Source: Bacteroidetes bacterium HLUCCA01 (GTDB lineage: Bacteria; Bacteroidota; Rhodothermia; Balneolales; HLUCCA01). Taken from it: a stretch of DNA of 64,000 bases. The stretch is from assembly GCA_001314545.1 (NCBI GenBank), contig LIHN01000017.1, positions 125,181 through 189,180 on the forward strand, read 5' to 3'. The first letter of the stretch is position 1. Each line of letters opens with the position of its first letter. Below are positions 43,151 to 64,000 of this stretch, piece by piece. The translations under genes and the position numbers were made by a program. The notes under the pieces are model-generated. The model was given only the letters and a program-made list of their open reading frames with translations, searched no databases and was not told the DNA's origin.

Positions 43151-43166
43151 TGCAAAATTGATACCA
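43151..43166 (-). promoter_or_regulatory. Candidate sigma-54 promoter for the flhB operon
   Basis: Minus strand TGGTATCAATTTTGCA; GG and TTGCA at correct spacing; about 97 bp upstream of flhB. Confidence 0.5.
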
Positions 43167-43173
43167 AAAAGGA

Positions 43174-43189
43174 TGGCACAGCTTTTGCA
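43174..43189 (+). promoter_or_regulatory. Candidate sigma-54 promoter for the flgF operon
   Basis: TGGCACAGCTTTTGCA (TGGCAC-N5-TTGCA); about 200 bp upstream of flgF. Confidence 0.72.
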
Positions 43190-51047: not shown

Positions 51048-52388
51048 ATGGACGCCGAGAGACAGGATTTAGCTATTGTACATTTCGTGACCGATCTCCG
51101 GTTTATGGATGCCGATACCCTGCGTGGATGGGTGGAGATGGCTGAAACCGTGACCCTGATCACCCCCGATCTGCCTTCCGAGCCATTGCCTGCAGGGGTT
51201 GACGTTGTGCAGTACGAACCCGGTTCATCCAAAGCCGGACTGTGGAACCAGTTTCTCGCTGATAGTGAAACATCTTTTACGCTGTTTCTGGAAGATGACG
51301 AGCGCTTTGAGCCCTACCACATGCCGGATTTGTCGCAGATGGATGCACGTAGCTTTTTCCCCGTACGCATTCAGACGGCAGACCGCGGCGAACGACAGAT
51401 TTTCTATCAGGTTCGGTTTTTGCCCAACCTGAGAAGCCGGGTCAGCGGCGAAGTATTTGACGGCTGGTCGATTCCCGACGCCACCCGTGTGGTCTACAAT
51501 CTGAATCTGGACATGCGCGATTTTGTGCTGCCCATCCGTCGGACCACCCCCCTGTACAAGCTGGTGGATCCGGAGGAAGAATTTGCCATCATGCCCCCGT
51601 CTATGCAGGCCTACCTTGTGATGGCCAGGGCCTACTTTGACGACGGGAAGTTTGCTCAGGCTGCATCGGCCTACCGGGCTCTGCTGAAGCGTACCCAGGT
51701 ACTGCCCTTCGACCGCCTGGCGGCCATCAACGGACTGGCCAGCTGTATGGCCGAACAACACCGCTGGCCCCAGGCCCTGGACCTGGCCCGCCAGTCTATA
51801 GAAGCCGAACCCCAGCAGTACCTGCCCTATCTGATCCAGTTCCGCATCCAGCAGCTTGCCAAAAACTGGAAAGCCGCCCTGGACGCCCTGGAAGATTTCA
51901 AGTCGCTGGCCGGATGGCCCTCACGTGCCGGCTTCGACGTAGGCATGGCCTCCGAAACCCTGCTTATGCAGCTGGCCGATCTGGCCTTCAAAGCCGGACT
52001 ACGCAAAGAAGCCTTCCGCTACTACGAGCAGATCTTTCATTTCCGGCAGGGCGCCGTTGACCATCAGCACCTCAAGCTCCTGTTTGTCTTCGCCACCGAG
52101 CTGGACGATTTCGAGAAAGCGGCGTATTACTTCGAGGTGATGTACGGTCCGCTGCTGCCCGCCAATGTGACCGATGATACCCGGGAGGAGGTCATGGAAG
52201 GACTCTCCATGTTCATGGAGAAGGGCTGGTACGATTACCCCACCGACCACTATATCAAACTGTTCGAGGTGGATCCGGCCAATCCCGATTACCGCAGGGC
52301 CCTGATTGCCGGCTTGTCCAAAACCAAGCGACTCAACGAAGCCAAGGCCATCTTCCGGGGACTCAGTGTCTTCGGGGATATGGAGTAG
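51048..52388 (+). CDS. TPR protein with GT2/GT-A-like N-terminal region
   Basis: SKAGLWNQFLADSETSFTLFLEDDERFEP resembles GT-A DxD context; C-terminal TPR-like helices. Confidence 0.6.
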   Translation: MDAERQDLAIVHFVTDLRFMDADTLRGWVEMAETVTLITPDLPSEPLPAGVDVVQYEPGSSKAGLWNQFLADSETSFTLFLEDDERFEPYHMPDLSQMDARSFFPVRIQTADRGERQIFYQVRFLPNLRSRVSGEVFDGWSIPDATRVVYNLNLDMRDFVLPIRRTTPLYKLVDPEEEFAIMPPSMQAYLVMARAYFDDGKFAQAASAYRALLKRTQVLPFDRLAAINGLASCMAEQHRWPQALDLARQSIEAEPQQYLPYLIQFRIQQLAKNWKAALDALEDFKSLAGWPSRAGFDVGMASETLLMQLADLAFKAGLRKEAFRYYEQIFHFRQGAVDHQHLKLLFVFATELDDFEKAAYYFEVMYGPLLPANVTDDTREEVMEGLSMFMEKGWYDYPTDHYIKLFEVDPANPDYRRALIAGLSKTKRLNEAKAIFRGLSVFGDME

Positions 52389-52394
52389 GTAAGC

Positions 52395-53831
52395 CTACCG
52401 CAGTTTATTACGAATGGTGCGATCTGATATCCCCAGAATTTTTGCGGCTTCCTTCTGATTCCCGCCGGTACGTTCCAGCGCCTTCTTGATCAGTTGCAGC
52501 TCCATCTCTTCGATCGGCATGAGCGGCAGATCTGAAAGCACTTCGCGACCCATCTGATGGTCCACACCCGAGAACATGTTATTGTCTACATGGTCGATGG
52601 TAATGGTGGATTCATCGTGCGATAAAATCACACCCCGGTGGATGAGGTTATCCAGTTCCCGCACATTGCCCTGCCAGTCGCGCTGCTGCAGGTGCTGCAT
52701 CAGGGTTTCATCGAGATGCTTGGGCGGCAGCTGGTACTGGTCGGTATACTTCTCGCAGAAATAGTTGGCCAGCAGGGGGATGTCTTCACGGCGCTCGCGA
52801 AGAGGCGGAATTGTGATGGGGAATACGTTGAGGCGGTAGTACAGGTCGGCCCGGAAAGCGCCGTCGTTAATAGCCTGAGGGATGTTCCGGTTGGATGTGG
52901 CGATTACGCGCACATCGGTGCGGGTTGTTTTCTGGCTGCCGATGCGCTGAAACTCCTTTTCCTGGAGCACACGCAGCAGTTTGGCCTGTACATTGATATC
53001 AATTTCGGTGATTTCATCCAGAAGGAGGGTTCCGCCGTCGGCTTCATCGAAGGCCCCTTTCTTGTCGGATATAGCACCGGTAAAGGCGCCTTTCATGTGA
53101 CCGAACAGGGTGCTTTCCACCAGCTCGGTAGGCAGGTTGGCGCAATTGATTTTGATGTATGGTCCGCTGGCGCGGTTGCTGTTCAGATGCAGCAGCTTGG
53201 CGTAGACTTCCTTGCCGGTGCCGCTCTCGCTCTGGATGAGCACCGGGGCGTCGTTGCGGGCGATTTTCGGCAGGATGCTCAGCAGCCGTTTCATGGCGGC
53301 CGTTTCGCCGACCATCACGGTATTGGGTTCGTTGGAGCCCGACCGGCTGATGTACGCCGTTTTTTCACGCAGCGCGCTTCGTGCGGCCGGTCCGCCCGAT
53401 GGCCCGACGGTGGCAGTGGTCTCAGCGCCGTTTTCCTGACTGGTTCGGGGATTACCTCCGGCTTCCCGGCGGTTATCGAAATAGCGCTTGATCCGGTAGG
53501 AAAACTCCTGGGGGGTGAACGGCTTGGTGATGTAGTCGTAGGCGCCCTTGCGCATGGCATTCACCGAGTGGTTCACGTTTCCGAAACCGGTAATCAGGAT
53601 CACGCCGGTATCCGGGTACTCGGTCAGAATCTGGTCCAGGACCTCATCGCCGGTCATCTCGTTCATTTTAACGTCGGTCACCACCAGATCGGTGGAGCTG
53701 GAGCGAAGGTGGTCCATGGCATCTACCGGGGAGGTAAAGGCTTTAACGGCATAGCCATTGAGGGTGAGCTGCTCTTCCATAAAGGAAATCAGCAGGTTGT
53801 CATCATCAATGAGTACTACGTTGCCGTTCAT
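52395..53831 (-). CDS. Sigma-54-dependent response regulator (NtrC/FlrC-like)
   Basis: Receiver LVVTDVKMNEMTG; AAA+ SESGTGKEVYAKLLH, GHMKGAFTGA, DEADGGTLLLDEI; Fis HTH GGNQKEAAKILGISDRTIRNKL. Confidence 0.95.
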   Translation of the reverse strand: MNGNVVLIDDDNLLISFMEEQLTLNGYAVKAFTSPVDAMDHLRSSSTDLVVTDVKMNEMTGDEVLDQILTEYPDTGVILITGFGNVNHSVNAMRKGAYDYITKPFTPQEFSYRIKRYFDNRREAGGNPRTSQENGAETTATVGPSGGPAARSALREKTAYISRSGSNEPNTVMVGETAAMKRLLSILPKIARNDAPVLIQSESGTGKEVYAKLLHLNSNRASGPYIKINCANLPTELVESTLFGHMKGAFTGAISDKKGAFDEADGGTLLLDEITEIDINVQAKLLRVLQEKEFQRIGSQKTTRTDVRVIATSNRNIPQAINDGAFRADLYYRLNVFPITIPPLRERREDIPLLANYFCEKYTDQYQLPPKHLDETLMQHLQQRDWQGNVRELDNLIHRGVILSHDESTITIDHVDNNMFSGVDHQMGREVLSDLPLMPIEEMELQLIKKALERTGGNQKEAAKILGISDRTIRNKLR

Positions 53832-55122: not shown

Positions 55123-56496
55123 TTACTGCATGAAGCCCATCGAAGCCATGATCTGGTTGTACTGGGTCTCGCCCTGATCAATGATCATCTGCAGTTTGGT
55201 AAACTGCTCGCGTTGCCGCTCTTCATATTGGGCGAGGAATTTCTCCTGTTGGGTGATACGTCGACCCAGATTTTCGATGCGCTGGTCAACCCCGTCTGTC
55301 AGCGTGGCAATGAGTCCCGTTGTGGGTTCAGCATAGCTGTTGGCCTCATTCAGCATGGAGGTGATCGGACTGGTTTCCGAGGTGAAGAACTGCTGCAACC
55401 CGTCAGGATTGGTCTCCAGGGCCTCATTCAGCTTTTCAGTGTCGCCCACTTTCATGGTTCCATCGCGATCAAACTCGATACCGATGTCGGCGAGCCTGCT
55501 GAAATCCCCCGTACCGGCCGCACTGTCAGACAGGATGCCGAACTGTCGCAGATTCACGGTCAGGTTACGCACTACGCGCATATCCTGCAACGGACCCCGG
55601 CGATCGTTTTCAGCGTCCAGGAAGGTACGGTCGCGGATGCTTTTGTTCAGGTTGTTAAACGCCGAAACGAATTCGTCTACCTTGCTGCGGGCCTCTTCCA
55701 GGTCGCGGGTAACATCCATGGTGACCGCGCTATCCGATGCCTTGAGCAGGGTGAAACTCAGGCCGTTGACGCTGTCGGTCACCTCGTTGGATCCCCTCGT
55801 AAAATTCACGCCGTCAATGGTAAACTGGGCGTCCAGCTCATTTTCCGGGGTCAGTTTGGAGATGGTCAACGCGGCGAGGTCGCCGTTGGCACTGTCAATC
55901 TGGATGCGGTTGTCAAAGCCGGTTTCGTTGGATTTCATGGAGAACTGCACATCGGTGCTGTTCACACTAAACAGGGAAGCACCGGCCTGCTCACCAAAGG
56001 TAGTGTTGATGGACTCGCTGAGTTCCTGCAACACTTCTGAATTGGTTTTTCCGGTGGTGTCCAGGGAAAAGGTTTCGGTCACATCGCCGATGGTGATGGT
56101 GATATCGCCGGTTCCCGTGGCGGCCAGGTCGGTGCCGTCTGCGGCCAGGGTCTGGGTCAGGGCGATGTCTTTGGAGGCGAGTCGCTGTACGTCCAGGTTG
56201 AAACTGGCGGCGCTGGTGAAATCCGTGACGCTGTTGATGCGAACCACGCTCTCATCGGAAACCGAGTTGGAGAAGGGCGAAAACGGATTGGGACCTTCAT
56301 CGCTGCGCAGACTGTCCAGCGTTTCGGTGAAACGCGTTACCGCCTTGTTTACATCCGAAAGCGCCGTTTTGCGTTCGTTTTGGGTACTTTGCTGCTGCTG
56401 AAGCTGGATTTTGGTGCGTGATTCCAGCTGGACCAGTTGCTGTACAAAGCCTTCGTAGGGATTGTTCTGTGCGATTAACGATGAAATACTGCTCAT
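55123..56496 (-). CDS. fliD: Flagellar cap protein FliD
   Basis: 457 aa; NPYEGFVQQLVQLESRTKIQLQQQQ...; FNNLNKSIRDRTF; C-terminal coiled coil. Confidence 0.93.
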   Translation of the reverse strand: MSSISSLIAQNNPYEGFVQQLVQLESRTKIQLQQQQSTQNERKTALSDVNKAVTRFTETLDSLRSDEGPNPFSPFSNSVSDESVVRINSVTDFTSAASFNLDVQRLASKDIALTQTLAADGTDLAATGTGDITITIGDVTETFSLDTTGKTNSEVLQELSESINTTFGEQAGASLFSVNSTDVQFSMKSNETGFDNRIQIDSANGDLAALTISKLTPENELDAQFTIDGVNFTRGSNEVTDSVNGLSFTLLKASDSAVTMDVTRDLEEARSKVDEFVSAFNNLNKSIRDRTFLDAENDRRGPLQDMRVVRNLTVNLRQFGILSDSAAGTGDFSRLADIGIEFDRDGTMKVGDTEKLNEALETNPDGLQQFFTSETSPITSMLNEANSYAEPTTGLIATLTDGVDQRIENLGRRITQQEKFLAQYEERQREQFTKLQMIIDQGETQYNQIMASMGFMQ

Positions 56497-56582: not shown

Positions 56583-56903
56583 TTATTGTCCTACCGCTAC
56601 CGGATGGGTATTGGCAGCCTGTTCCCAGGCGTCGCGCAGGGGTTCCAGCAGCTCGCGTATTTCCTGGTACTCGCCCTTGCGGGAAAGCTCCTGGCAATAT
56701 TGATACAGCGAGAATAACTGACCCGAGATTTCATAATCGAAATTCAGCCCCTTGATCAGGGTGGAAAGAATTTCCCGAAGCCGCTTGTCGTCTTCGCGCC
56801 AGCTGGCCTGAATAGCCAGGTCGTAGAGCTTGACCACAATTTTCATCGGCGAAGCATTCATCACCGTTTGCTGCTGATATTTCAGATGTGGATTCTTCAT
56901 CAT
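56583..56903 (-). CDS. fliS: Flagellin chaperone FliS
   Basis: QQQTVMNASPMKIVVKLYDLAIQAS; position upstream of fliD. Confidence 0.9.
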   Translation of the reverse strand: MMKNPHLKYQQQTVMNASPMKIVVKLYDLAIQASWREDDKRLREILSTLIKGLNFDYEISGQLFSLYQYCQELSRKGEYQEIRELLEPLRDAWEQAANTHPVAVGQ

Positions 56904-57229: not shown

Positions 57230-57245
57230 GGCAAAATCTGTGCCA
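57230..57245 (-). promoter_or_regulatory. Candidate sigma-54 promoter for fliS-fliD
   Basis: Minus strand TGGCACAGATTTTGCC, nearly identical to the flgF element at 43174. Confidence 0.6.
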
Positions 57246-57251
57246 TCGGTT

Positions 57252-57267
57252 TGGCATCTTTTTTGCG
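57252..57267 (+). promoter_or_regulatory. Candidate sigma-54 promoter for the giant GT41 gene
   Basis: TGGCATCTTTTTTGCG, 53 bp upstream of the GTG start. Confidence 0.6.
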
Positions 57268-57319: not shown

Positions 57320-60300
57320 GTGAAAGCCCAAGTCCAACGTGCCCAGAATCTGTTAAACCGAAAAACACCGAAACCCATCGAGGCCCTGGCTGTCTTAAAG
57401 CCCCTGATGAAATCCGGCACCCCTCCCTGGCCGGTCTATCATTTTGCCGGGATTGCCTATGCGCTTCTGGGCGATCATACCCGGTGTGAGGAGGCCATGC
57501 GTGCGGCGTTGGACGGTGGCAGCACGGAGCCGGAGACCTACCATACCCTTTCGGTGGCACTATACAAGCAGGAAAAGTATGCCGAGGCGGAATCTTTTGC
57601 CAGGCAGGTCGTGCAGATGAAACCCGACTTCGTGAAGGCGCTGCTCAACCTCGGACTCATCCTGCAGGCCCAGGCCCGACTCGAGGAAGCCCTGCAGATT
57701 TATGCCCGTGCCAACCAGCTGGACCCGGGTAATGCCGTCATCGCCTTTAAAATCGGGGTTATCTATAAAAATCTGGGGAATTTTGCCAAGGCGGTGGAGC
57801 TGTTCGATATTGCCATGAAAATGGATCCCACCTACGAAGGACCGGTGATTGAAAAAGCCGGTTCGTTGATTAAGCAACGGGATTTCGAAAAGTCCGATGA
57901 ACTCCTGGCCGACTTCCTGCGCCGCAAGCCGAACAGTGTTGAAGCGCGATCGCTGCTGGCCGACTCCAAAAAGGAACAGTCGCTCTACGATGAGGCCATC
58001 GTCTTGTATAAAGAGGTCCTCGACGATAATCCCCGAAATCCCGGTGTTCGGGTGAATTACGGACTCTGTCTGCAGGAGATGGGCCGGTACGATGAGTCGG
58101 AGAAGGAATACCTGCGCGCCCTGGACACCCCGCCACCGATGATGGAATCCATGAGCAATTACCTCATGGTCATGCATTATAATCCGGAGCGTACCCGCGA
58201 ATACATTTTTGAGGCCCACAAGAAGTGGGATGCGTTCTTTGCTCCTGCTGAGCGACCTGAACGGCCGGTGCCGGCGGACCGCTCGCCCGACAAGCGACTT
58301 CGGGTGGGGTTTGTCTCCGGCGGATTCCGGTCGCACCCGGTGGGGTGGATGATTACCCGCGGACTGGAGGAGCTGTCCCCGGAGGACTACGAGATTTACT
58401 GCTACACCACCAACAACATCAACGACAAGATCACCCAGCGCATCGCGACCCGTGCTGACAAGTGGCGGTCGGTGGTGGGATTTAACGATGAGGTCGTAGC
58501 CCGGCTGATCCGCGAGGACGAAATTGACATTCTGGTAGAGTTATCCGGTCATGCCGGCGACAATCGCCTGCGGGCGGTGGCCATGGAGCCTGCTCCCGTC
58601 ATTGTGAAATGGGTGGGCGGACTGTTCAACAGCACCGGGCTGCGTTCCATTGATTATCTCATCTCCGACTGGAACGAGACGCCCGGGGGCGTGGAGGAAT
58701 TTTATACAGAGAAGCTGGTGCGTATGCCCGATGACTACATCTGCTTCATGCCGCCGTCCTATGCGCCGGAGGTGTCGCCCCTGCCTGCTTTGGAGCAAGG
58801 CTTCGTGACCTTTGGCTGTTTCAACAATCCGAGCAAGATCAATCCGGAGTTGTTGTCGCGTTGGGGGGTGTTGCTGGCGAGGGTGCCGGGCAGCAAGTTG
58901 TTTCTGAAGAGTGGTCAGTATGACAGTGTGGAATTTCAGGAGCGAATATTGGGCGCGCTGGCCGATGCGGGTATTGGTCGGGACCGGGTCATTTTTGAAG
59001 GGCGGTCGCCCCATGAAGACCTGCTCGGAGCGTATTCGAAGGTCGACATCGCTCTGGATCCGTGGCCGTATTCCGGCGGGCTGAGCACCTGCGAGGCCTT
59101 GTGGCAGGGGGTGCCCGTGGTGACCTATCCCGGTCCGACCTTTGCGGGCCGGCACTCCGTGACCCATTTGCGTAATGCCGGCTTGCCGGAGATGGTAGCC
59201 GACTCCTGGGATGAATACGTTGATAAAGCTGCCGGACTGGCCGGCGACCTGGACGCCCTTGCCGGGCTCCGCGCGCGCCTGCGCGATCAGGTTTCGTTCT
59301 CGCCCCTGTGTGACGGTGAGCGCTTCGGCGCTGCCCTCGGCGACGCCTTCCGCCAGATGTGGCACGCCTACGCCGAAGACCGCCTCAGGCAAGATCACAT
59401 TGCAGTATCGGATGCGGTTGGCCGCGAGGTATCGGTTGTTGGCAACAATGTACCTGTGGTGGGCAACGATGTGTCTGCAGGCGGTAGCGATGACGCCGCG
59501 GCGCGCACCTCCTCGAAAGTAAGCACCGCCGCTGGCAAGTCCAAGGAAGGGGATGGTGATGTATCCGGTGCGGCGGTTCAGGACATCCCGAAACGTAACA
59601 TGGAGACCTCGTCAAACGCGAATAGCTCCCAAAAGCCCAATGAAACCGAAGTGGCATCGGATGTTCATCCCGTGGGTAAATTGCAGCAATCTATGGATAC
59701 AACAATCGATGATGATTCCATCGATGAGCAGACTCCGAATAATGCTGCACCCTCCGATTATCAATCCCTGGACGGGTCTCGTCCGGCAACACCATCCTTC
59801 ACGGAGGAACATCCTTCCGATTTACCTAAAGACAGCATGGATTCAAAAACCAAATCCACCGACGAAGAAATTGCGAAAATTGCCCGTTACCAATGGAAAC
59901 ACGGTAGTCATGAGAATTTGCAGGTTGAGGGGAAACACGGTATCAAATACAGCGTCCCGAGTTCTCTGGAAGTGATGTCTACCTATGTGCTCCTTGAACA
60001 GGGTCAATGGTATGACCCGGATGTAGATTTTGTGGCCGAATTTGTTCAGCCGGGCATGAACGTGCTGGATATCGGCGCCGGGTTCGGGGCCTATGCCCTG
60101 CCTGCCGCTCAAAAAGTGGGTCCGGCCGGGAAGGTATACGCCTTTGAACCCGTTGGGGAGACGCGGAAGCATCTGGATATCAGCAAAGTTGAAAATGGTT
60201 TCACCGGACTGGAGGTCGTAGGTCGGGCACTCGGAAGCGCGTCTGGCAAACGAGGACTGAGTAAAACAGCCACGCCGGAGCTGACGGTGCTGGAGCAGGA

Positions 60301-63157
60301 TGGAAACGACGTTCAGGTAGTGACGCTCGACAGCTGGTGGGACTTTGAAGGAAACCCATCGGTGGATGTGCTTAAAATTGATGTCAACGGCAAGGAGCTG
60401 GACGTGCTGCAGGGAGCTGAGCGCATGCTGACCGAGCAATCCCCGGTGTTGATACTCGCCACAGGGAACATGACGCAGGCAACGCTGGATCTCTTGCAAG
60501 CCAAAACCTACACCTTCTTTGACTACATCGGCGGTGTAGGTGTATTGAGTCCGGTAGAAGACTGGTCGCAGCGTGATTCCTATGCGCAGAACGTGGTTGC
60601 AATAAAGCAGGAGCAGATAGCTGCGCTGGCAGCTTCAGGTTGGATTCACAACGAGACTGCCGATGTTGCAGAGCCGGAAATGGGTTACTGGAAGAAATCG
60701 TTACGAGCCATGCCCTGGACGGAAGAATTATTTTCGGAATGGGAAAAACAGTCGATTGTGCCCGGACACACGAACTATTTCCGTGCATTGGATTACATCT
60801 GTGCGGCGGAAGATCTGGTACGGGAGGTTGAAGTGCTGAGTGATACCGTTGAAATGGAGGGTTCAACGGCAACTGAAGCCGGCGATACAGCTGTAAAAGA
60901 GCTGGCAACGCACGAAGAAACGCCTGATACACCGGACAAGGGATTCACGAACGACGCAAAAATCGAATCGCGATTACTGAGATCACACAAAGCCACACTC
61001 CTGTTGGTCGCAGCTCAGGAGCTCATTGCCAAATACAATGCAGGCGAAGGTGGAGCATCCGTAGCTATGACCCTTGTTCGCGTCATGAACACGCTAGGTC
61101 GACGGGACCAGGCTGTAGCCATCATGCAAAAATTAATGCAAGACAGCAAAATGGGCCAGGACAATATGGATGTGGCCCTGCCATTCCTTCTGCCCATCCC
61201 AGCCATGGATCAAGCCCCCATCCGAACCGAATTCGCAAAATGGTTGATGGTACGAACCGTGGAATCGTGGTTACTACTCAAAGATTTGACGGGGTATCTG
61301 AGTGGGGAAACAGAAAGAAAACTAACATCACTTCTTATTGGCAATTCTGAATCTTCATCCTTTGAAAGTGTTAGCAATAGAGTGAATGAACCTATTTATA
61401 AGGGTGGAACAAGTGATTTATTTCAAACTAGGAGATATGCTAAAGCACATTTTGGAGTTGATGGATTATTTCATGTTTTGAACGAAAGAAAAATTAAATA
61501 CGTAATTCTGCGGTGGTTTGAAAATCTACCGCATATAGATGAAGGAGAAGATCTAGACTTTCTTATTGCTGATGAAGATTTATATAAGCTTTCCGATGTA
61601 TTTGAAAGTGAGCCATCGCCTGGGTCAGTGAAATGTGATATTTACAGTGTTACAGGTAAGAGTGGAAGTAGTTTCGAAGGCTTGCCCTATTACGAGTCAA
61701 GGTTAGCTGAAATTATTCTTGATAATTCAATTCTATACAAAGGTAAGTACCGAGTACCAGATCCCCTAAGGTATTTATTATCATTAGCTTATCATGTTGT
61801 TTTTCATAAAGCTGACTTTTCTGGGTTGTCAGTTAGAGACGGGGAGAAGCCTCGATATTTATTAAAGCAAGACCATAACTATGCAGTAATCTTGAAAAAT
61901 ATTGCTAAAGAATTGCAACTTGATATTGAGCCAACTCTAGAAGGATTATTAAGTTTCTTACGGAAGTACAATTTCGTTCCAAGTGTTGACTTGACACGAA
62001 AACTATCCATTAGAAGACCTTGGTTAAGAGAATTGTATCCACCAACAACACCCAAAGATCTCAGCAGTGGCGAATTAGCTGTATTTGTTATAAGGGAGTG
62101 GGCTACTGCAAACGGCTGGGAGGGATCAATTATAAAACACCTAATTAGTCGGGGTTTTGATATTAAAAGGATAATTAAACTCAATAAGTCTCAGCAGGAG
62201 GCTTCATCAAAATCGCTAAGAGGAGGAAATTGGAATAAAGGTCCTTGGCCAGTATCTGGTGGTAAGCCGAGTGTTTTGGTAGTAGCCTATGATTACACTC
62301 CTATATTTAGTTCGAAAAAATTAAGGAAATATCATCCTTTTTTGAGTAATGCCAGAGTTTTTGGAATTAAGCAGGAGATTAGAGAAGCTATAAATAAAAA
62401 GCTGCCTAAAGATAAAAGACTGAATCCAATACATACAACTGATGACGAAGTAGAGGCAATGGATTATGTTCTTACTGTTGGCGGAAAGGCTTTGAAATCC
62501 GATATACTTGATTCAATAAGTTTAGGCTACCAGGGTAGTAGTGATGTTAAAATAAAAGTCCATACTGGCTCACGAGCGGAGACGTATATTTCATACCAAA
62601 CTGGTCAGCCAGCAGTTCTTAAACAGTATTTTGATACTAATGACGGGAATAATTCATTTTCCTCTGAGTTACTAGCAATTTCATTATTTAACGATAGAAA
62701 ATGGTTCCCAAAGTGTATAAAGAACGGGAAGCGTTGGATTCTGCAAGAATATATTCCCAATTCACTCAGACTAGATGTATTAGTTAATTATTTAAATAAG
62801 GAAGAAAAAAGGACCATTGCTGGCAGGATACTTGATGTCATATTTGAAATATATGATAGTGGCTACGCTCACCGTGATATCCACGCCAAAAACATATTTA
62901 TAGTTGATGGAAACCCCATACTTATTGATTATGAGACAATTATTAAGCAATCAAAAAGTGTAGATTTTTTAAAATCATATGATATAACTGCTAAAGGTCT
63001 CATATCTCCATATAACACATCAAATATGTGCTGGAATAACAGAAACTACAGCTACACCCTGCTCAATACTCTTGGTGTTGATTTAGAAATAGCGCAAAAA
63101 TTTTCTACAACTGCTGGTCTCTCACATATTCACGGAAAAATTCAAAAAAATCGGTAA
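57320..63157 (+). CDS. Giant multidomain protein: TPR + GT41 (SPINDLY-type O-GlcNAc transferase) + FkbM-type methyltransferase + NTase-like + kinase-like domains
   Basis: 1945 aa. TPRs; LRVGFVSGGFRSHPVGWM...ELSGHAGDNRL...ALDPWPYSGGLSTCEALWQGVPVVTYPG (GT41); NVLDIGAGFGAYALPAAQKVGPAGKVYAFEP...VVTLDSWWDFEGNPSVDVLKIDVNGKELDVLQGA (FkbM); YVILRWFENLPHIDEGEDLDFLIADED; AHRDIHAKNIFIVDGNPILIDYE (kinase). Confidence 0.9.
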   Translation: MKAQVQRAQNLLNRKTPKPIEALAVLKPLMKSGTPPWPVYHFAGIAYALLGDHTRCEEAMRAALDGGSTEPETYHTLSVALYKQEKYAEAESFARQVVQMKPDFVKALLNLGLILQAQARLEEALQIYARANQLDPGNAVIAFKIGVIYKNLGNFAKAVELFDIAMKMDPTYEGPVIEKAGSLIKQRDFEKSDELLADFLRRKPNSVEARSLLADSKKEQSLYDEAIVLYKEVLDDNPRNPGVRVNYGLCLQEMGRYDESEKEYLRALDTPPPMMESMSNYLMVMHYNPERTREYIFEAHKKWDAFFAPAERPERPVPADRSPDKRLRVGFVSGGFRSHPVGWMITRGLEELSPEDYEIYCYTTNNINDKITQRIATRADKWRSVVGFNDEVVARLIREDEIDILVELSGHAGDNRLRAVAMEPAPVIVKWVGGLFNSTGLRSIDYLISDWNETPGGVEEFYTEKLVRMPDDYICFMPPSYAPEVSPLPALEQGFVTFGCFNNPSKINPELLSRWGVLLARVPGSKLFLKSGQYDSVEFQERILGALADAGIGRDRVIFEGRSPHEDLLGAYSKVDIALDPWPYSGGLSTCEALWQGVPVVTYPGPTFAGRHSVTHLRNAGLPEMVADSWDEYVDKAAGLAGDLDALAGLRARLRDQVSFSPLCDGERFGAALGDAFRQMWHAYAEDRLRQDHIAVSDAVGREVSVVGNNVPVVGNDVSAGGSDDAAARTSSKVSTAAGKSKEGDGDVSGAAVQDIPKRNMETSSNANSSQKPNETEVASDVHPVGKLQQSMDTTIDDDSIDEQTPNNAAPSDYQSLDGSRPATPSFTEEHPSDLPKDSMDSKTKSTDEEIAKIARYQWKHGSHENLQVEGKHGIKYSVPSSLEVMSTYVLLEQGQWYDPDVDFVAEFVQPGMNVLDIGAGFGAYALPAAQKVGPAGKVYAFEPVGETRKHLDISKVENGFTGLEVVGRALGSASGKRGLSKTATPELTVLEQDGNDVQVVTLDSWWDFEGNPSVDVLKIDVNGKELDVLQGAERMLTEQSPVLILATGNMTQATLDLLQAKTYTFFDYIGGVGVLSPVEDWSQRDSYAQNVVAIKQEQIAALAASGWIHNETADVAEPEMGYWKKSLRAMPWTEELFSEWEKQSIVPGHTNYFRALDYICAAEDLVREVEVLSDTVEMEGSTATEAGDTAVKELATHEETPDTPDKGFTNDAKIESRLLRSHKATLLLVAAQELIAKYNAGEGGASVAMTLVRVMNTLGRRDQAVAIMQKLMQDSKMGQDNMDVALPFLLPIPAMDQAPIRTEFAKWLMVRTVESWLLLKDLTGYLSGETERKLTSLLIGNSESSSFESVSNRVNEPIYKGGTSDLFQTRRYAKAHFGVDGLFHVLNERKIKYVILRWFENLPHIDEGEDLDFLIADEDLYKLSDVFESEPSPGSVKCDIYSVTGKSGSSFEGLPYYESRLAEIILDNSILYKGKYRVPDPLRYLLSLAYHVVFHKADFSGLSVRDGEKPRYLLKQDHNYAVILKNIAKELQLDIEPTLEGLLSFLRKYNFVPSVDLTRKLSIRRPWLRELYPPTTPKDLSSGELAVFVIREWATANGWEGSIIKHLISRGFDIKRIIKLNKSQQEASSKSLRGGNWNKGPWPVSGGKPSVLVVAYDYTPIFSSKKLRKYHPFLSNARVFGIKQEIREAINKKLPKDKRLNPIHTTDDEVEAMDYVLTVGGKALKSDILDSISLGYQGSSDVKIKVHTGSRAETYISYQTGQPAVLKQYFDTNDGNNSFSSELLAISLFNDRKWFPKCIKNGKRWILQEYIPNSLRLDVLVNYLNKEEKRTIAGRILDVIFEIYDSGYAHRDIHAKNIFIVDGNPILIDYETIIKQSKSVDFLKSYDITAKGLISPYNTSNMCWNNRNYSYTLLNTLGVDLEIAQKFSTTAGLSHIHGKIQKNR

Positions 63158-63159
63158 TT

Positions 63160-64000
63160 TGTGCCAACTGTTGTCTCACTAAAGTCCATCGAGAGTGGGC
63201 AGAATCACATTTGAAGTGCCCGATTTTCATTTAGGGGTCATCGGTTAAATTTTCAATGATAGATTCTCCAAAGAATACTTCTTTGGGGGTTAAATAGCCA
63301 AGTTTTTTGCGGGGTCTGTTGTTACGTGTTTCACAAATCTGTCTGAGTTCTTTAGGTTGAACGAATTGCGCGTTTCTTGGGCAGATACTGCCTGACCAGA
63401 TTATTAAGCTGCTCGATGCGTGCGGATTCGTTGGTTTGATACGGAAAACAGAACCAAACCTCCATTAAGATAGCGTGCTGTCTGCTGATGATGCGCAAAC
63501 TCCGGACCATTGTCGTTGGTCATTGAGTTCATGCCAACACGAACGTCTTTAAGTAGTTTTCTGGTACCAATATGGGTGTTATGAGGTGTTTTACGGTGAA
63601 TTTGTGCTAACCAGCAATAGCTCGACTTCCGGTCCACAATGCTCAGAATGGCCCCTTTTTTTGCAGGTCCTACGATGGTGTCACGTTCCAAATTACCGAT
63701 TCACTCCAGTTTATCTACACAATCGGGACGCTGGTCAATAAACCGGCGGTTTTAATAATACTACGCAAGGTTTTGGTAGTGTTACGTTTTTTTGGCCTTC
63801 TTTCTTCCCGTTCTCAGGTAGGTGTACAAACGGCCACCATCGGCAGCATTCTGATAAATATGGCGGTACACGGTCATGTGACTTATGTTCATGTGGTTTC
63901 CGTACTCCAGGCACAGTCTTGGACCGATTCTGGCAGGTTCAAGTCCTGTTTTTTTGAGCAATTGAATGCATATATCGTATAATTCGGCTTTAAAACGATA
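63160..64000 (-). pseudogene. IS30-family transposase remnant with frameshifts, continuing beyond window end
   Basis: Minus strand fragments HMNISHMTVYRHIYQNAADGGRLYTYLRTGRKK, GNLERDTIVGPAKKGAILSIVDRKSSYCWLAQI, MTNDNGPEFAHHQQ, NNLVRQYLPKKR, ELRQICETRNNRPRKKLGYLTPKEVFF lie in different frames. Confidence 0.82.

Follow-up and report, generated by a model that had tools for sequence, protein, structure and literature searches.

A flagellum-associated TPR-GT41-FkbM fusion protein of Balneolales with an exchangeable C-terminal tail, a candidate flagellin-modifying enzyme

The fusion gene and its flagellar setting

The stretch of DNA considered here (the window) is 64,000 nucleotides long and comes from Bacteroidetes bacterium HLUCCA01 (contig LIHN01000017.1). 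Near its end, divergent from late flagellar genes, lies a single open reading frame for a protein of 1945 residues. The order of its domains is TPR, GT41, an acidic Ser-rich linker, FkbM, a conserved helical region, and then NTase-like, NDK-like and protein-kinase-like domains. The gene and its neighbours are as follows.

52395..53831, minus strand: FlbD-like sigma-54-dependent response regulator (flagellar synteny)
55123..56496, minus strand: fliD (flagellar synteny)
56583..56903, minus strand: fliS, the divergent neighbour (flagellar synteny)
57230..57245, minus strand: divergent sigma-54-type site TGGCACAGATTTTGCC, facing fliS/fliD, one mismatch
57252..57267, plus strand: sigma-54-type promoter-like site TGGCATCTTTTTTGCG, facing the fusion gene, one mismatch
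57320..63157, plus strand: whole fusion ORF, 1945 aa, GTG start, no internal stop

In the order searched, Balneolales, nearly all relatives carry a gene of the fusion family divergent beside fliS and fliD, and flagellin genes often lie on its other side. The order fliS, fliD, flbD on one flank is kept across Balneolales. The window as a whole holds 12 sigma-54-type sites against 5.5 expected, and sigma-54-like sites with at most one mismatch occur within 250 bases upstream of the fusion gene in 21 of 35 relatives; the number expected, from shuffling of these upstream sequences, is 0.15. A further divergent pair of such sites lies inside the flagellar region at 43151-43189. The flagellar cluster also keeps, across Balneolales, a 446-aa protein (51048-52388, plus strand) with weak TPR matches; no Pfam family matches its N-terminus, where the acidic stretch LFLEDDERF is reminiscent of glycosyltransferases.

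The TPR-GT41 protein goes together with FliD. It is found in 38 of the 49 genomes with FliD over the cut-off and in none of the 80 others, bar one distant paralogue outside the flagellar cluster (Fisher p 4e-23, which is too small, since the relatives are not independent). As 11 genomes with FliD lack it, not every flagellum of the order requires the gene.

HLUCCA01 has three tandem flagellin genes (L113:7017-11115) at the end of another contig, C11, the third being cut by the contig end. In a species of the same genus three flagellins directly adjoin the fusion gene, so those of HLUCCA01 probably lie next to it as well. The other genome that matters here, G102, is a Balneolaceae genome, from another family (JAFIFA010000083.1). 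It encodes the identical domain order in one 1812-aa ORF (L054:1200-6638, on a contig of 21,477 bases), with a flagellin directly after the fusion and no sugar-synthesis genes. The two proteins are 51% identical over aa 1-766 and 46% identical over aa 865-1923 of the window protein, and the window tail can be aligned almost as far as the C-terminus of the G102 protein. No second copy of the fusion was found within the HLUCCA01 genome. Translated frames directly downstream of the fusion ORF (63240-64000, minus strand) contain a decayed IS30-like transposase that reaches the contig end, 843 bases past the stop codon of the fusion.

The shared core: TPR, GT41, FkbM and helical region

The N-terminal two thirds of the protein form the core that it shares with its relatives.

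57320..58144, plus strand: TPR domain, putative flagellin-binding part, aa 1-275, with TPR family matches at aa 40-270
58145..59389, plus strand: GT41 (OGT/SPINDLY-type) glycosyltransferase, aa 276-690, with H339, H411 and K506 conserved
59390..59869, plus strand: Ser/Asp-rich linker, aa 691-850, no domain match
59870..60814, plus strand: FkbM-type SAM methyltransferase region, aa 851-1165, motif VLDIGAGFG at 60062
60815..61369, plus strand: helical region, where the shared core ends and tails are exchanged, conserved part aa 1208-1348

An earlier, sequence-only reading of this DNA had described one uninterrupted 1945-aa frame with TPR, GT41 and FkbM domains, a Ser/Asp-rich linker and an NTase-like acidic motif. 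The frame is indeed free of stops from the GTG at 57320 to 63157, the linker and the motif (GEDLDFLI, 61544-61567) are where it placed them, and the three domains are borne out by profile matches. PF13844 (GT41) matches aa 493-669 with an E-value of 5e-39 (134 bits, cut-off 25). FkbM models match aa 915-1047 over their curated cut-offs (PF05050, aa 917-1046, 54.8 bits against 22.7; TIGR01444, 77.4 against 37.7). Relatives of the GT41 part in the PDB span aa 279-687 and include a Thermobaculum-type OGT (5djs) and SPINDLY. In SPINDLY, H495 and K665 are essential (PMC9715652). By our reading of an alignment matched by eye, their counterparts would be H411 and K506, which are kept in 33 of 34 and in all 34 members of the fusion family, respectively.

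Nonulosonic acid was considered as the GT41 donor and set aside: NeuB, of its pathway, has no match in the HLUCCA01 genome, which is 98% complete, and the donor is therefore predicted to be another sugar. A Maf-type rival enzyme (PF01973) likewise gave no match, a weak result because the model matched only archaeal controls. No Pfam family matches the helical region after FkbM, and in 394 genomes sampled from the phylum the FkbM-helical core turned up in Balneolales only. This core also exists without GT41, since separate genes at L097:277-3021 and L102:1-2552, each near a full fusion, combine it with a GT4-like tail.

The C-terminal NTase-NDK-kinase tail

The tail is the C-terminal ~590 residues (aa 1360-1945). 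The query alone gives weak kinase-type matches, and the tail was studied through its relatives: a scan of 84,980 species, one genome each, returned 49 loci, for example in Planococcus, Halomonas, Cellulosimicrobium, Waterburya, Pontibacter, Gillisia, Nitratireductor and Roseibacillus. An alignment of 38 tails, query included, shows invariant or nearly invariant residues of three catalytic folds.

61397..62038, plus strand: NTase-like domain, aa 1360-1573; D1411, D1413, D1440
62039..62524, plus strand: NDK-like domain, aa 1574-1735; R1592, R1688, N1702, H1705, D1708
62525..63154, plus strand: protein-kinase-like domain, aa 1736-1945; K1768, E1783, D1853, N1858, D1870

AlphaFold2 models of the tail reach a pLDDT of 92 with the kinase and 93 without it. 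The second model was made because a Foldseek comparison of the whole tail with the PDB listed mostly kinases and was silent on the other two domains. Structural matches for the C-terminal domains, a check that the sequence-only reading had suggested, were thus obtained to kinases, to NDKs and, weakly, to CCA-adding enzymes. The kinase-like C-terminus with HRD at 62870-62878, part of that reading, is now supported: Pkinase matches 23 of the 38 tails (the query's own score lies below the Pfam cut-off), PDB protein kinases match this part with E about 1e-9, and the Lys, Glu, HRD Asp, Asn and DFG-type Asp are all present on a kinase fold.

The NTase assignment had been declared the weakest part of the reading. 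It has gained some ground. A pol-beta-type DxD with a third Asp is conserved (D1411, D1413 and D1440 in 33, 33 and 35 of 38 tails), and NTP_transf_5 (PF14907) matches five of the 38 when each is scanned singly, with a best E of 0.0096. The fold match is weak, with CCA-adding enzymes at ranks 26, 29 and 50 when the model without kinase was compared with the PDB, and a profile search of the PDB with this part gave nothing credible.

Between the NTase-like and kinase-like parts lies a domain that had been missed. With the model without kinase, NDKs and NDK-containing structures occur in the first 25 rows of the PDB comparison (E from 3e-4), and a comparison with a library of viral structures gave NDKs again, together with a weak LicD match. 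NDK profiles match five of the 38 tails (best E 5.7e-4), and H1705, the catalytic His of N-x-x-H-x-x-D, is present in all 38. The query itself has no NDK row in Pfam, and R1592, also invariant, stands by our alignment where NDKs have Lys; for these reasons aa 1574-1735 is designated NDK-like only.

Exchange of C-terminal tails

Most family members keep the TPR-GT41-FkbM-helical core and differ in what follows it. In most other fusions the tail is unrelated to that of the window, being a second FkbM, a GT4-like domain, GT2 with a GT4-like domain, GT56 (WecF-like), a methyltransferase and kinase after a region that we read as GT2-like, or an APH kinase with a methyltransferase-like part. In a few members FkbM or APH comes directly after GT41, and three consist of TPR-GT41 only. 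On the TPR-GT41 tree (34 ingroup rows, 33 labelled) the tail class changes at least 17 times. The same-genus species is instructive: its TPR-GT41 part is 87% identical to that of the window, whereas its tail is different, and DNA identity between the two copies (78% in the last stretch) ends at about aa 1344.

Base composition changes along the same ORF. GC content is 0.56 in TPR, 0.61 in GT41, 0.53 in FkbM, 0.49 in the helical region and 0.35-0.37 in the tail, while GC3, at 0.75 in GT41, is down to 0.25-0.29 in the tail. All 23 fusions measured have a tail that is richer in AT than their TPR-GT41 part. In addition, the NTase-NDK-kinase tails of the window and G102 are each other's closest relatives, but their TPR-GT41 parts are not.

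It is thus highly likely that C-terminal tails have been exchanged. The NTase-NDK-kinase block is an AT-rich exchangeable cassette, the part before it the shared core, and foreign cassettes taken up in frame time after time would produce such a pattern of exchange and GC content. The two NTase-NDK-kinase tails could alternatively descend from an older shared tail that was lost in the sister species. The GC content of the window tail, which has not adapted, favours recent transfer.

Clues to the function of the tails

The clearest clue comes from the GT56 class. The donor of WecF is TDP-Fuc4NAc, whose precursor is made by WecE. Each of the seven GT56 loci, whether the GT56 is fused or a gene of its own, has a WecE-like gene close by; the three tested score far over the WecE equivalog cut-off, and none of that identity was found at the other loci examined. 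In four genomes GT56 is a separate gene with its own TPR, 50-56% identical to the TPR of the neighbouring GT41 protein. As the unfused enzyme carries a related TPR, this domain is probably a common means of holding the substrate, and the tail enzymes probably act on the same glycan. Sugar genes also stand beside other fusions: a sulfotransferase (L106:12314-13027) beside one, and WbqC-like and sugar aminotransferase genes (L102:2558-4356) beside another.

The stand-alone relatives of the NTase-NDK-kinase tail provide a second clue. That of Planococcus sits in a polysaccharide locus with apparent genes for chain length, flippase, GalU and UDP-glucose dehydrogenase (identified from the starts of their sequences), and that of Halomonas is near a CDP-glycerol glycerophosphotransferase and a cytidylyltransferase-like gene. 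Such neighbourhoods, and the LicD gene beside the kinase-less relative at L150 (see below), favour the addition of a phosphate-containing substituent. The absence of sugar-synthesis genes around the fusion and flagellin of G102, a single case, is fitting for a tail that needs NTPs only. The link from tail to product is strong only for GT56/WecE; for the NTase-NDK-kinase tail it is drawn from the polysaccharide loci of its stand-alone relatives.

Within Balneolales, two loci (L148, L150) encode NTase-NDK proteins that lack the kinase and whose DxD is degenerate (GKSIELL, GKGIELL). The one at L150, in a MAG, lies beside LicD, a TPP-dependent decarboxylase-like gene and an iron alcohol dehydrogenase.

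Proposed mechanism and alternatives

From genomic context and the analogy with FlmG, it is quite likely that the fusion protein takes part in flagellin glycosylation. The sequence-only reading had proposed a single-polypeptide modification line. The notion of one flagellum-tied polypeptide holds, given the synteny, the sigma-54-like sites, the restriction to genomes with FliD, the conserved residues and the G102 copy; the NDK-like domain and the exchangeable nature of the tail had escaped it. In the proposed mechanism, the TPR domain would bind flagellin before export, GT41 would O-link a first sugar to Ser/Thr, FkbM would methylate this sugar, and the C-terminal cassette would add a species-specific finishing group. 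In the present case the foreign NTase-NDK-kinase cassette would most likely phosphorylate or nucleotidylate the glycan from ordinary NTPs, and the NDK-like domain may feed the NTase, relay phosphate via H1705 or be structural. Leaving the chemistry of the last step aside, we consider it probable that the protein modifies flagellin in the cytoplasm in the manner of FlmG, as a line in one polypeptide with an exchangeable last step. That a phosphoryl or nucleotidyl step acts on the glycan is proposed more tentatively.

The core could modify flagellin while the tail acts directly on protein, phosphorylating or AMPylating flagellin or some other flagellar protein, or serves as a sensor of the nucleotide state. 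Such a role would suit the kinase profile, which is closest to protein kinases and to the kinase domains of lanthionine synthetases, enzymes that phosphorylate peptide Ser/Thr. It sits less well with the stand-alone relatives in polysaccharide loci, that of Halomonas adjoining the glycerophosphotransferase gene, with the glycosyltransferases and methyltransferases that form the other tails of the family, or with a GT56 tail that fits the adjacent sugar pathway; action of the tail on protein is rather unlikely. Improbable to a greater degree is another target for the whole enzyme (FliD, the hook, other secreted proteins or a lipid-linked surface glycan), the flagellar location serving for co-regulation only. 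The immediate divergent neighbours are indeed fliS and fliD rather than flagellin, and the flagellins of HLUCCA01 are on another contig. Yet flagellin adjoins the fusion in several relatives, including the same-genus species and G102, the analogous TPR domain of FlmG of Caulobacter crescentus has been shown to bind flagellins (PMC7591256), and the protein has no match to a membrane or lipid-transfer domain.

The break in GC content within the ORF, the IS30-like remnant immediately 3' of it and the nearby contig end might be taken to mean that unrelated genes were joined by assembly or by the IS element, leaving a non-functional tail. A search for the same architecture in other genomes, which the sequence-only reading had called for, speaks to this point: an assembly artefact is ruled out by the single 1812-aa ORF of G102. 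About 20 genomes have fusions to other tails, internal stops are absent, catalytic residues are conserved and the alignment of the tail extends almost to the G102 C-terminus, so that a joining artefact of either kind is hardly credible. A modification line acting on flagellin is the reading that we retain.

Significance and relation to known systems

Flagellin glycans belong to the surface structures, and gain or loss of whole genes in glycosylation islands is the usual explanation for their diversity. If the proposal is true, these glycans would be diversified within one ORF, by a fixed front that grips flagellin and swappable finishing enzymes held by the substrate, and each species would have its own flagellar coat through different sugar-modifying tails. 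It thereby becomes possible to test if exchanging the tail is enough to alter a flagellar glycan. Attention is also drawn to an NTase-NDK-kinase enzyme, so far uncharacterised, whose genes lie in polysaccharide loci of several phyla. The fullest form of the proposal, put forward with reserve, is that foreign C-terminal cassettes are taken up by a flagellin glycosyltransferase gene acting as their acceptor site, with flagellar glycans diversifying much as polymorphic toxins do, and that NTase-NDK-kinase is a new three-enzyme glycan phosphoryl/nucleotidyl unit that also stands alone in such loci.

Each enzyme fold and flagellin glycosylation by TPR-GT proteins are already known. As far as the open-access literature shows, the one-chain TPR-GT41-FkbM-helical core, the exchange of C-terminal enzymes and the NTase-NDK-kinase unit are new. 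Searches of that literature for flagellin, glycosylation, O-GlcNAc and FkbM together found nothing, and those for Balneola, or for SPINDLY with FkbM among the papers listed, found nothing relevant; given their scope, both are weak evidence.

The fusion resembles GT41 enzymes (OGT, SPINDLY and Thermobaculum OGT, 5djs) in its TPR and GT41 fold and in the counterparts of the essential His and Lys; unlike it, those compared have no FkbM, helical region or exchangeable tail. One tail class recalls the WecF/WecE (Fuc4NAc) pathway, being GT56-like with WecE encoded beside it. WecF works on a lipid-linked sugar, whereas the GT56 of Balneolales is tied to the TPR domain of the family.

FlmG is similar in its association with flagellin and in its N-terminal TPR and C-terminal OGT-like GT-B domain, but it has 596 residues, lacks FkbM and a tail, and needs pseudaminic acid (PMC7591256). 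The fusion shares with it a TPR and a GT domain near flagellar genes; a nonulosonic (pseudaminic) acid donor pathway is not found in the HLUCCA01 genome, and since NeuB has no match there, the fusion is regarded as working like FlmG and not as an FlmG. Flagellin glycosylation islands such as those of Geobacillus likewise have strain-variable glycan and FkbM methyltransferase genes beside flagellar genes; they vary by whole genes, whereas the Balneolales fusion varies by domains inside one ORF (PMC5109656). Finally, polymorphic toxin systems offer the same plan of a conserved front whose C-terminal cassettes are exchanged with stand-alone genes (PMC3482391). The cassettes there are toxins; those of the fusion are glycan-modifying enzymes, and the likeness does not imply immunity genes.
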